From Leucothrix arctica (lineage in GTDB: Bacteria > Pseudomonadota > Gammaproteobacteria > Thiotrichales > Thiotrichaceae), in contig NZ_QGKL01000029.1 in the NCBI RefSeq assembly GCF_003172895.1, forward strand, positions 186,001 through 250,000: DNA of 64,000 nt, in the 5' to 3' direction. Below the pieces are notes generated by a model. That model was not told the origin of the DNA. It was given only the letters and a program-made list of their open reading frames with translations, and searched no databases. The translations under genes and the position numbers were made by a program. The first letter of the stretch is position 1, and every line of letters begins with the position of its first letter. Positions 39,963-46,174 of the stretch are shown here, piece after piece.

Positions 39963-40793
39963 ATGACATTACCCGACAACATAGCGACTAGCGTACAACA
40001 AGCCTTACTTGAAGATATCGGTACTGGCGATGTTACTGCTGATTTGATTGTAGAAGTCAGTCAGTCTGAAGCTACCGTTATTTGTCGTGAAGATGCCATA
40101 TTGTCAGGCTGTGCTTGGTTTGATGAGGTTTTCAAACAAGTTGATGCCAGCGTAAAGGTCGAGTGGCATTTTAAAGATGGCGATAACGTTCCAGCCGACG
40201 CTATTCTTTGCAACCTAAGTGGCTCATCTCGTTCGTTACTGACAGGTGAGCGTACTGCTCTGAACTTTGTGCAAACATTATCTGCAACAGCCACTGCAAC
40301 AAATGCCTTCGTTAAACTTATCAAAGGCACCAAGGCCGATATTCTAGACACTCGTAAAACGCTACCCGGACTTCGTCTTGCTCAAAAGTATGCGGTGACT
40401 TGTGGCGGTGGTGCAAATCACCGTGTTGGTCTGTATGACATGATTTTGATTAAAGAGAATCACATCATGGCGGCTGGCTCGATTACTAAAGCCATCGCCA
40501 ATGCGCGAAGCTTGCACCCAAGTATTAAAATAGAAGTAGAAACAGAGACACTTGCCGAGTTTGAAGAAGCGTGTGCCGCAGATGCTGACATCATTATGTT
40601 AGATGACTTTGACTTAGAGACGATGCGAAAGGCTGTTCAGAACAACCCTAAAGGTATTCCTTTAGAAGCTTCTGGTAATGTGAATTTAGAGACTGTCGTG
40701 AACATTGCAGAAACAGGTGTAGATAGAATTTCTATTGGTGGAATTACTAAAAGTGTTGAAGCAATTGACCTATCGATGCGCTTCAAGCTCTAA
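39963..40793 (+). CDS. nadC: Nicotinate-nucleotide pyrophosphorylase (quinolinate phosphoribosyltransferase)
   Basis: 276 residues, the usual length. Converts quinolinate and PRPP to nicotinate mononucleotide in NAD synthesis. Conserved LLEDIGTGDVTADL, TLSATATATNAFV, the catalytic DTRKTLPGLR, KYAVTCGGGANHRVGLYDMILIKENHI, and ASGNVNLETV near the C-terminus are all present. It may be co-transcribed with the cytochrome gene and ends in a strong terminator. Confidence 0.96.
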   Translation: MTLPDNIATSVQQALLEDIGTGDVTADLIVEVSQSEATVICREDAILSGCAWFDEVFKQVDASVKVEWHFKDGDNVPADAILCNLSGSSRSLLTGERTALNFVQTLSATATATNAFVKLIKGTKADILDTRKTLPGLRLAQKYAVTCGGGANHRVGLYDMILIKENHIMAAGSITKAIANARSLHPSIKIEVETETLAEFEEACAADADIIMLDDFDLETMRKAVQNNPKGIPLEASGNVNLETVVNIAETGVDRISIGGITKSVEAIDLSMRFKL

Positions 40794-40821
40794 CACGTCA
40801 CACCTCCTGTCACATACATAC

Positions 40822-40853
40822 AAGCCTTGTCACATTTCGACAGGGCTTTTTTT
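40822..40853 (+). terminator. Intrinsic terminator of nadC
   Basis: AAGCCTTGTC (40822-40831) pairs with GACAGGGCTT (40839-40848), one G-T pair, followed by seven Ts. It isolates nadC from the RNA-like region downstream. Confidence 0.9.
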
Positions 40854-40915
40854 ATGCCAACCTTAACAGAAACCAAACAAACGATTAAAATCAACAACTT
40901 AAAATAACGTGAACT

Positions 40916-40934
40916 TTTGGCATAGCTGTTGCTA
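40916..40934 (+). promoter_or_regulatory. Sigma-54 (RpoN) promoter
   Basis: TTGGCAT...TTGCT: the -24 GG (40919-40920) and -12 GC (40931-40932) are ten bases apart, exactly the spacing of the consensus TGGCACG-N4-TTGC, and the flanking TGGCA and TTGC also match. Transcription would start near 40944. No gene follows before the terminator at 41088-41119, so it drives a non-coding transcript. Confidence 0.78.
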
Positions 40935-40943
40935 CCTATTAAT

Positions 40944-41119
40944 CAGCAACACAACAACAATAATATGCAAACGAAGACAATGTGTAAGACGAAGACAGGC
41001 AGCTAGATAACTAATAACAACAAACGAATAATAAAAATAATGCCTGTATAACAAAATCAATAATTTCAGTCTTACCGACTTTAGAACACGCCACCTCGCT
41101 CCCTCGAGGTGGCGTTTTT
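40944..41119 (+). ncRNA. Candidate sigma-54-dependent A-rich small RNA
   Basis: About 176 bases from the predicted start to a strong terminator, with no open frame. The RNA is rich in AAnAAnAA-type runs: AACAACAATAAT at 40953-40964, a 28-base A-rich stretch at 41013-41040 with AACAACAAA, and 41050-41063. ACAGGCA (40995-41001) pairs perfectly with TGCCTGT (41041-41047), placing the second stretch in a loop. A nine-base direct repeat ACGAAGACA occurs at 40971 and 40989. This layout (RpoN promoter, A-rich repeats, terminator) recalls CrcZ/CrcY of Pseudomonas, which titrate Hfq/Crc; the analogy is inference, since no sequence homology was tested and no cbrAB genes are here. Confidence 0.6.
41088..41119 (+). 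terminator. Intrinsic terminator of the candidate small RNA
   Basis: ACGCCACCTCG (41088-41098) pairs perfectly with CGAGGTGGCGT (41105-41115) over a six-base loop, followed by a T-run. Very stable. There is no protein gene between it and the nadC terminator, so it must end another transcript. Confidence 0.92.
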
Positions 41120-41264
41120 ATTTCTGCGATCTCTGTAACTCCCCCTTTTCTAAATTATCAACTCGATACGAGTGTCGTGACTGTGCTTTACCCTATAAAA
41201 AGCGTAGAATCAGCAATAATTTTAAGAATCCCCAATAGTCATTAATATTAATCAGGGGAAGCAT

Positions 41265-41282
41265 ATGGGCATCATTGAATGA
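41265..41282 (+). CDS. Five-codon leader frame coupled to ftsE
   Basis: ATG GGC ATC ATT GAA TGA: preceded by a good AGGGGA site (41254-41259), it ends with a TGA that overlaps the ftsE start (ATGA). The ftsE ATG has no ribosome-binding site of its own. Ribosomes probably load on this frame and restart at ftsE. It may be only a coupling device. Confidence 0.4.
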   Translation: MGIIE

Positions 41283-41929
41283 TTGAGCTGCAGGACGTAA
41301 GCAAAAAATACCCCACAGGGCAAATTGCACTCTACAACGTAAATCTTAGGCTACAACAGGGCGAAATGGCATTTCTAACGGGCCACTCTGGCGCGGGTAA
41401 AAGTACCTTACTAAAACTAATCGCTCTTCTCGACCGTCCGACACAAGGAAAAGTGTTGATTGATGGTTTTGATATTAGCCAACTAAAACAAAACCAAGTG
41501 GCTAATTATAGACGAAGCATCGGTGTTATTTTTCAAGACCATCATCTGCTGTCTGACCGTACCATTTTTGATAATGTTGCGTTACCACTCATGATATCAG
41601 GCATGCGCCCTGCTGATATCGAGCGTCGCGTGCATGCAGCATTAGATAAAGTTAATTTAATGTCCAAAGAAAAAGACTACCCAATGATGCTTTCTGCAGG
41701 AGAAAAGCAACGTATTGGTATCGCTCGCGCGGTTGTTAATAAGCCCAGCATTATTTTAGCCGATGAACCAACGGGTAATCTTGACCCTGGCTTGGCTTCT
41801 GACATTATGCAAACTTTCCAACAGTTTAATGAGCTTGGTGCAACCATCCTGATCGCCAGTCATGACCAACCGCTGATTGAACGCATGGGCAAACGCATTA
41901 TTGCGCTACAAAAAGTTAAGGGCCGGTGA
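41279..41929 (+). CDS. ftsE: Cell division ATP-binding protein FtsE
   Basis: 216 residues. The start MIELQDVSKKYPTG and PGEMAFLTGHSGAGKST-type Walker A (here QGEMAFLTGHSGAGKST) align with E. coli FtsE (MIRFEHVSKAY). The signature is LSAGEKQR, Walker B IILADEPTGNLD, and the H-loop ASHD. With FtsX it forms an inner-membrane complex that activates periplasmic amidases via EnvC at the septum. The last four bases overlap ftsX. Confidence 0.96.
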   Translation: MIELQDVSKKYPTGQIALYNVNLRLQQGEMAFLTGHSGAGKSTLLKLIALLDRPTQGKVLIDGFDISQLKQNQVANYRRSIGVIFQDHHLLSDRTIFDNVALPLMISGMRPADIERRVHAALDKVNLMSKEKDYPMMLSAGEKQRIGIARAVVNKPSIILADEPTGNLDPGLASDIMQTFQQFNELGATILIASHDQPLIERMGKRIIALQKVKGR

Positions 41930-45940: not shown

Positions 45941-46174
45941 ATGTCGTCTAAAGGACACATGCTACAAGAGCCTTTTCTGAACGCTCTGCGTAAAGAAAGA
46001 ATCCCAGTAGCTATCTACTTGGTAAATGGAATTAAGCTTCAAGGTCATGTTGAGTCTTTCGACCAATTTGTTGTTTTATTAGGCAATGCAGTAAGCCAGT
46101 TGGTTTACAAGCACGCTATTTCAACAATTGTACCTTCACGCCCTATCAAGCTAAACATCGAAGAATCAGAGTAA
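45941..46174 (+). CDS. hfq: RNA chaperone Hfq
   Basis: 77 residues with the Sm1 motif ([35 protein letters not shown]) and Sm2 motif YKHAIST, preceded by AAGGAGAA. Distal-face (Tyr25-type, [10 protein letters not shown]), proximal-face QEPFLNALR and rim residues match E. coli; the C-terminal tail is much shorter (77 against 102 residues), as in pseudomonads. Forms a hexamer that pairs small RNAs with mRNAs and binds A-rich (ARN) RNA, relevant to the candidate RNA near 41 kb. Confidence 0.97.

Follow-up and report, generated by a model that had tools for sequence, protein, structure and literature searches.

We propose that the intergenic region between nadC and ftsE in the analyzed stretch of Leucothrix arctica DNA (64,000 nucleotides, hereafter the window) encodes a sigma-54-dependent, PilR-activated, A-rich scaffold RNA that would occupy the RNA-binding protein Hfq. 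This is the best overall explanation that we can offer, and we hold it at about even confidence. The gap (window positions 40918-41119) contains a sigma-54 promoter, an A-rich predicted non-coding RNA, a stem, and a terminator. The DNA sequence itself shows the promoter and the operator, their conservation, covarying helices, the AAN period, the sibling genes, and the use of this operator by the pilin genes as well; the function of the predicted RNA is the weakest link of the proposal. The most likely reading is that of a group of pilus-responsive, Hfq-binding RNAs, in which the window RNA would act chiefly as a sponge and a sister family would probably also base-pair.

The source genome of the window (4.75 Mb, 44 contigs) was compared with six further genomes of the same genus. 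The predicted small RNA (176 nt; 40944..41119, plus strand), whose start was placed by the spacing from the -12 element and which is supported by fold, alignment, and a covariance model termed R1, lies between nadC (39963..40793, plus strand), its 5' neighbor and syntenic anchor, and ftsE (41279..41929, plus strand), its 3' neighbor; both genes were taken from the list of open reading frames and named from their sequences. Searching the relatives for the complete element at the DNA level returned mostly low-complexity, A-rich chance matches, and synteny with nadC, for which 47 of 57 genomes gave a match at E ≤ 1e-30, was used instead. The promoter, the A blocks, the helices, and the terminator are kept in all six readable same-genus genomes, L. 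arctica included, while in the seventh (G005) nadC reaches the contig end and the gap is unreadable. The layout 3' of nadC is the same in 6/6: TGGCAYR-N4-TTGC, an A-rich RNA of 170-182 nt, a terminator, and then ftsE. The original prediction had staked itself on promoter and A-rich blocks being conserved in close relatives, and this conservation in the readable genomes is the strongest argument that the predicted RNA is not a product of chance. Its two basic elements also hold up as far as sequence can tell: the -24/-12 element is exact where it had been proposed and is kept in 6/6, and the 176-base non-coding, A-rich structured stretch is borne out by fold and conservation.

The model R1 was built from the six genus sequences, and these training members score 119-137 bits, with the window RNA, itself a training member, at 119 bits. 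A search with R1 over 63 genomes of the order (Thiotrichales in NCBI; E ≤ 0.01) gave matches in ten, namely the six genus genomes and four of genus g5 with weak matches, which upon inspection contained no orthologs of the window RNA. Among the weak R1 matches, L129 and L130 are gene 3' ends with terminators, and L131 and L132 represent another A-rich element, one that has no sigma-54 site; this element (TTAATAATAATAATATGGCCGGGCTAACAATAATAATAA with a terminator) is found in two g5 genomes directly before a tRNA-like sequence. One further weak match, L133 in the L. arctica genome itself, led to the sister RNA family described below. In genome G017, from another genus, the region L114:3981-4300 has a sigma-54 site, two TGTCA half-sites, the A-rich core AATAATAAAAATAA of the window RNA, and, by eye, a hairpin surrounding that core, and scores only 19.8 bits (E 0.15) against R1; we regard it as a plausible distant version, as a candidate only. 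An ftsX-like gene has its 3' end next to the L114 candidate. When named genomes were scanned with a sequence pattern, L. arctica perhaps not being covered, nine matches resulted: the same arrangement was present in Leucothrix pacifica and an uncultured Leucothrix (four Leucothrix matches, L112 counted), and one match fell in a Thiotrichaceae MAG. Two others (L113, L115) were taken as chance matches, their reading frames unexamined. In two Aneurinibacillus genomes (L111, L116) a sigma-54 site is followed by AATAATAAAAATAA and some common leader sequence; these are probably an unrelated sigma-54 leader. No paper in open-access full text mentions Leucothrix together with 'small RNA'.

The sigma-54 promoter, TGGCATAGCTGTTGC (40918..40932, plus strand), was identified by pattern match and is retained in the six genus genomes. 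Five places in the window match TGGCAYRNNNNTTGCW with at most one mismatch (3.5 expected), and 40918-40932 is the sole exact one. Exact matches to TGGCAYRNNNNTTGC number 24 in the genome versus 13 for the reversed control, so that one sigma-54 site alone is weak evidence. In the upstream region, the alignment shows three conserved modules: TGTCA, 14-15 bases, and TGTCA-N5-YGACA; an IHF-like site; and the promoter. The upstream TGTCA half-site (40808..40812, plus strand) is invariant in 6/6, as are the TGTCA and GACA parts of the TGTCA-N5-YGACA palindrome (40828..40842, plus strand), which in the window has the TGTCA-N5-TGACA form; both are parts of a putative PilR operator. The palindrome is 90 nt 5' of the -24 element and overlaps a terminator-like hairpin after nadC (40822-40848). 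The IHF-like site AATCAACAACTTA (40889..40901, plus strand) agrees at 9/9 positions with WATCAANNNNTTR, which we took as the IHF consensus for scoring, and sites of 8-9/9 stand at -28/-29 from the TGG in all six genus genomes. As a control, the remaining 23 exact sigma-54 matches of the genome were scored; six have a site of 8-9/9 anywhere in the same 70 nt, in one case at -29. In the interval from 55 to 180 nt 5' of the -24 element, members of the window-RNA family carry 2, 4, 5, 4, 4, and 5 TGTCA/TGACA half-sites, and the other 23 exact sigma-54 matches of the L. arctica genome carry none or one (mean 0.09). A search of the seven genus genomes located the tandem TGTCA pattern at the window RNA and upstream of fimV and nowhere else, hence at no more than two places per genome (the RNA site only in G001 and the fimV site only in G005, the assemblies being incomplete). 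The latter gap, between genes that we take to be asd and fimV, holds two tandem TGTCA-N5-TGACR operators in six of seven Leucothrix genomes (L099, L100, L102, L104, L105, L108); there the operator is present with no recognizable sigma-54 site in the gap.

A collection of pilin-type genes over the order comprised 105 pattern matches in 46 genomes, from which 55 unique starts were examined, those from genus g2 being chosen as probable major pilins. There were 39 major-pilin starts, 37 of them with 380 nt upstream. A sigma-54-like site precedes 28 of the major pilins; 25 of these 28 promoters have at least two half-sites at 55-180 nt (7% in shuffles) and 18 have the palindrome, while three lack two half-sites. 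Two 15-mer palindromes are letter-identical between pilin promoters and promoters of the window RNA family. At least two half-sites also occur in seven of the nine major-pilin upstream regions without a promoter match and, within 420 nt, in seven of 16 minor-pilin-like genes (26% in shuffles), none of which has a sigma-54 match, so that half-sites alone are not specific. The L. arctica genome has four major pilin genes (C3:122539, C3:125295, C20:56, C3:121362). Three are nearly identical and have one and the same sigma-54 promoter, two of these standing at contig ends, perhaps because the assembly broke in a repeat; the remaining gene is divergent, and its promoter match is weaker.

The genome yields 12 Sigma54_activat matches, of which the seven strong ones were read and the five weakest have E values of 4e-8 to 1e-3. 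The seven full enhancer-binding proteins, PilR among them, lie beside PilS-, NtrB-, NtrY-, Cache-, or HAMP-type kinases, or are RtcR; NtrC and RtcR exceed curated cut-offs. Two DctD-like activators adjoin TRAP-type binding proteins and one activator adjoins an ABC-type binding protein. An NtrX-like protein (L068) beside the NtrY-type kinase is unlikely to be the activator, since by eye it is missing the GAFTGA loop that a sigma-54 activator should have. PilS was identified by the Pfam domain 6TM_PilS (E 2e-19); beside it stands a regulator of receiver-AAA-Fis type, which we assign as PilR because the adjoining kinase has the PilS membrane domain.

In P. aeruginosa, PilR activates pilA with sigma-54, and PilR is present in many piliated bacteria (PMC6058289); the same source characterizes PilR sites as NifA-like, consisting of TGT-N11 sequences that have GTCT elements close by. 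The window RNA resembles a member of this PilSR regulon in that it has the operator and promoter layout of the major pilin gene and its genome encodes PilS-PilR. PilR is the best candidate because the operator is common to the small RNA and major pilin promoters and because PilR activates pilA elsewhere, and we consider it very likely to be the activator of the window RNA. The assignment is made by operator sharing in a genome that also encodes NtrC, RtcR, the two DctD-like proteins, and one further activator. GlrR and NtrC site types were ruled out on spacing and sequence. Among the open-access papers brought up by searches on PilR with small RNAs or PilR sites, no title or abstract opening deals with a small RNA under PilR.

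The transcribed region is predicted to be highly structured. A 178-nt region folds at -38.6 kcal/mol (z = -5.15), with 0/200 shuffles as good. The 7-bp stem of the original prediction, 40995..41001 paired with 41041..41047 (plus strand), is exact and proved to be the inner helix (P2) of a longer one, of which the outer helix (P1) has its 5' arm at 40982..40994 and its 3' arm at 41064..41076 (plus strand). RNAalifold on the six genus sequences recovered the inner helix with changes on both sides. Because MAFFT aligns the outer arms poorly, the arms of both helices were tested by swapping between species. For P1, own arms averaged -9.9 kcal/mol against -3.9 kcal/mol when swapped, and of 720 permutations only the true assignment attains the observed sum. 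For P2, whose arms are identical in two of the species, 4/720 do so. Single-sequence folds served to choose the arms, and this favors own pairs in the comparison. By these measures P1 and P2 are nested covarying helices of the predicted RNA. The perfect 11-bp terminator that had been proposed was found independently by a terminator scan at 41088-41115 and is followed by a T run (41088..41120 in all, plus strand).

The helices and the terminator would hold three A-rich blocks. Block 1 (40951..40965, plus strand) consists of AAN repeats, with A fractions of 1.00, 0.97, and 0.07 in the three phases. Within the A-rich loop (41010..41040, plus strand) lie ACTAA at 41010-41014 and, at 41027-41040, the core AATAATAAAAATAA. 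Block 3 (41048..41063, plus strand), with A at each third base, shows A in 100%, 86%, and 27% of the alignment cells of its phases. Column shuffles reach the observed phase contrast in 20/20000 trials for block 1 and 0/20000 for block 3. The core is invariant in 6/6 window-RNA orthologs, and it is found in 10/10 aligned Leucothrix sister units, which had been located by a pattern containing it. ARN triplets in runs of at least three number 13 in the window RNA (shuffle mean 4.7; six of 500 shuffles reach 13) and 13-20 in its five relatives (reached by 0-6 of 500 shuffles). The A-rich blocks of the original prediction thus exceed shuffles and are kept with period three in relatives. The six-genome alignment has 47 invariant columns before the terminator, 37 of which are A, and outside the A-rich runs (core, ACTAA, AA pairs) there is no invariant run of more than three bases, the longest being ATG; no seed is therefore visible in the window RNA.

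The A-R-N form is what the Hfq distal face binds (PMC4063720), and the conserved blocks with their period of three fit the form of such sites. A candidate partner is encoded nearby: hfq (45941..46174, plus strand; 77 aa) was identified from the list of open reading frames, a family search, and comparison with P. aeruginosa Hfq. The short-tailed Hfq noted in the original prediction is thus a 77-residue protein that retains the same 11-residue distal-face stretch as P. aeruginosa Hfq. We predict with good confidence that the window RNA binds Hfq. We infer a sponge-like action because the letters kept are those of a protein site and not those of a guide; that sponging is its main action we judge to be slightly short of an even chance. 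ARN blocks are also present in base-pairing (class II) Hfq RNAs, and thus they are no proof of sponging.

The sister family was obtained over the 63 genomes with a pattern of a sigma-54 site and AATAATAAAAATAA 76-106 nt downstream, which beyond the window RNA matched at five more places in the L. arctica genome, three in L. pacifica (G003), and one each in G004 and G006. Its layout begins with an A-rich part at the 5' side and ATTTACCAGCAAGCCCC, after which come a hairpin, whose A-rich loop is that of the window RNA, and a terminator. The L. arctica genome has six sister units, two of them in tandem (C3:1719-1892, C22:286103-286413, C29:81942-82110, C29:84362-84530, C41:94460-94637), and loci L134, L145, L147, L149, and L150 show the family. 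The covariance model R2, built for this family, gave matches at E ≤ 0.01 in 33 of the 63 genomes, distributed over genera g1 (6), g5 (11), g8 (7), g6 (2), and g2 (7); the g2 matches are weak (E 4e-4 to 9e-3), and four of the seven were inspected, all four having promoter and core. At least two units stand within about 300 bp in 11 of the 33 genomes. A broader model, R3, adds units in G009 (g4) and G011 (g6) that R2 missed, and in a class-wide sample of 369 genomes (E ≤ 0.001) it returned G009, G011, L. arctica, and a marginal G416 (E 8e-4). Judged by this search, with its strict filters and genome sample, the sister family is likely restricted to the order. Rfam gave no match, including Qrr and GlmY/GlmZ, on 12 loci (11 sister loci and L114).

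The sister promoters have the same kind of control region. The comparison used 38 loci with duplicates omitted; L173, L174, and L175 were dropped for having no recognized core, and L153 and L163 because the promoter match was absent or the upstream sequence too short. In each of the resulting 33 distinct promoters, which come from six genera, two or more TGTCA/TGACA half-sites stand at 55-180 nt upstream, with a mean of 4.1 versus 0.52 in shuffles, 9% of which reach two; the TGTCA-N5-TGACA palindrome is present at 27/33, versus 0.1% in shuffles. These counts include close relatives and are not independent.

The sister family also provides an argument for a different reading, in which the window RNA, like Qrr or class II RNAs, depends on Hfq and acts by base pairing with specific mRNAs, the A blocks serving only to load it on Hfq. 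The 9-mer AGCAAGCCC, apparently unpaired, is present in 9/10 aligned Leucothrix sister units and in 28/28 rows of a multi-genus alignment, the rows of which were picked by this 9-mer, and is missing from some R2 matches (L173, L174, and first units of some tandems). It appears strongly conserved in the sister family, and because of this conservation we argue that the family probably also base-pairs with mRNAs; its C run could pair with G-rich ribosome-binding sites. The sister RNAs have the promoter layout and loop in common with the window RNA, and multi-copy sigma-54 RNAs are reminiscent of the Qrr RNAs. The window RNA and its five orthologs, on the other hand, lack AGCAAGCCC, which places them outside the sister family, and they have no invariant stretch beyond three bases other than the A-rich runs. 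For the window RNA itself we therefore consider a targeted base-pairing role unlikely, although well worth weighing.

Hfq sponging by a sigma-54-dependent, A-rich RNA recalls CrcZ, on which the original prediction was modeled. That likeness stands for the promoter type, the A blocks, and the fit to Hfq, and it fails for membership in the CrcZ family, for CbrAB, and for the wiring to carbon repression. The whole of Rfam 15 at gathering score gave one tRNA only over the window, and when 40780-41290 was scanned permissively, the six weak matches obtained did not include CrcZ, for which Rfam has a model. The window RNA is flanked by nadC and ftsE and not by cbrAB, and the search for CbrAB found no CbrA-like transporter-fused kinase beside the seven strong enhancer-binding proteins: six neighboring kinases, read full length, have no transporter domain, and no kinase was seen beside RtcR. 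CbrAB has been described as unique to Pseudomonadaceae (PMC8871633). The CbrB site is TGTTAC (PMC6296734), and neither TGTTAC nor GTAACA occurs in 40788-40943. Since a covariance match is absent, CbrAB is neither adjacent nor found, and the operator differs, the window RNA is not a CrcZ family member, and with neither CbrAB nor a CbrB site found the link to carbon repression was dropped. What it has in common with CrcZ/CrcY/CrcX is a sigma-54 promoter with an operator and an IHF-type site, A-rich Hfq motifs, and multiple copies in some genomes. It differs in size, with 176 nt and three blocks against the 407 nt and six A-rich stretches of CrcZ (PMC4063720), and in having a pilin-gene type of operator in place of the CbrB TGTTAC (PMC6296734).

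The Pseudomonas system also suggests that the A blocks could be a platform for another A-rich-RNA-binding protein or for a complex of Hfq-Crc type, not Hfq alone: AAN repeats are not unique to Hfq, and Crc works with Hfq in Pseudomonas (PMC4063720). We find this improbable, given that hfq is 5 kb away with its distal-face stretch conserved and that the AAN period fits the A-R-N pockets of Hfq. Less probable still, indeed very doubtful, is that there is no free RNA and that the region serves ftsE as a 5' leader or attenuator or forms the 3' portion of the nadC mRNA. Its position on the same strand between nadC and ftsE in 6/6 genomes would suit such an element, but the region has its own promoter, a strong terminator ends it about 160 bp before ftsE, and sister RNAs of the same layout adjoin unrelated genes. 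A small protein, hinted at by the ATG invariant in 6/6 and by a 33-aa ORF (GTG start) crossing the region, was rejected as exceedingly improbable on frame divergence, the frames after the conserved ATG differing by eye among species both in sequence and in length, from 2 to 13 codons.

Several other families invite comparison with the proposed Hfq-occupying RNA. The Qrr RNAs are multi-copy sigma-54-dependent small RNAs of Vibrio; several such RNAs with terminators under one response regulator resemble the AGCAAGCCC sister family, but the Thiotrichaceae RNAs have no Rfam match and are distinguished by a PilR-type operator, large A-rich loops, and tandem arrays. ChiX and MgrR are class II Hfq RNAs with ARN blocks and a terminator U tail, features found here as well, while the window RNA has in addition a conserved three-block scaffold and a sigma-54-type promoter. 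GlmY/GlmZ are sigma-54 small RNAs with IHF and TGTC/GACA half-sites, an arrangement like that seen here; GlrR sites are spaced N10, whereas the spacing is N7 in the window RNA, which has no Rfam match to them.

Taken as a mechanism, the proposal runs as follows. The enhancer-binding protein of the major pilin gene, most likely PilR of PilS-PilR, would activate the RNA gene, probably assisted by IHF. Two nested helices and the terminator would display three A-rich blocks in single-stranded form; each block would span some five AAN triplets and could bind the distal face of about one Hfq hexamer. By occupying Hfq, the RNA would relieve or alter Hfq-dependent control for as long as PilR is active, a state that in P. 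aeruginosa arises when pilin is short. The window RNA would belong to a similarly controlled set of RNAs in Thiotrichaceae, to which the sister family adds AGCAAGCCC and with it, probably, pairing with mRNAs. In its fullest form, which we put forward only tentatively, pilin shortage in Thiotrichaceae may cause PilR to turn on pilin together with a bank of Hfq-soaking RNAs, the window RNA being a pure sponge and the AGCAAGCCC branch also acting as guides.

If the proposal is true, it provides conserved RNA families of several copies that have no Rfam match and are open to testing in cultured Leucothrix. Hfq titration by sigma-54 RNAs would not be confined to the carbon control of Pseudomonas and would have a second setting with PilSR as its input, and PilR would gain a post-transcriptional arm. 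It would also suggest how filamentous bacteria of the sulfur cycle might link surface contact to gene expression.
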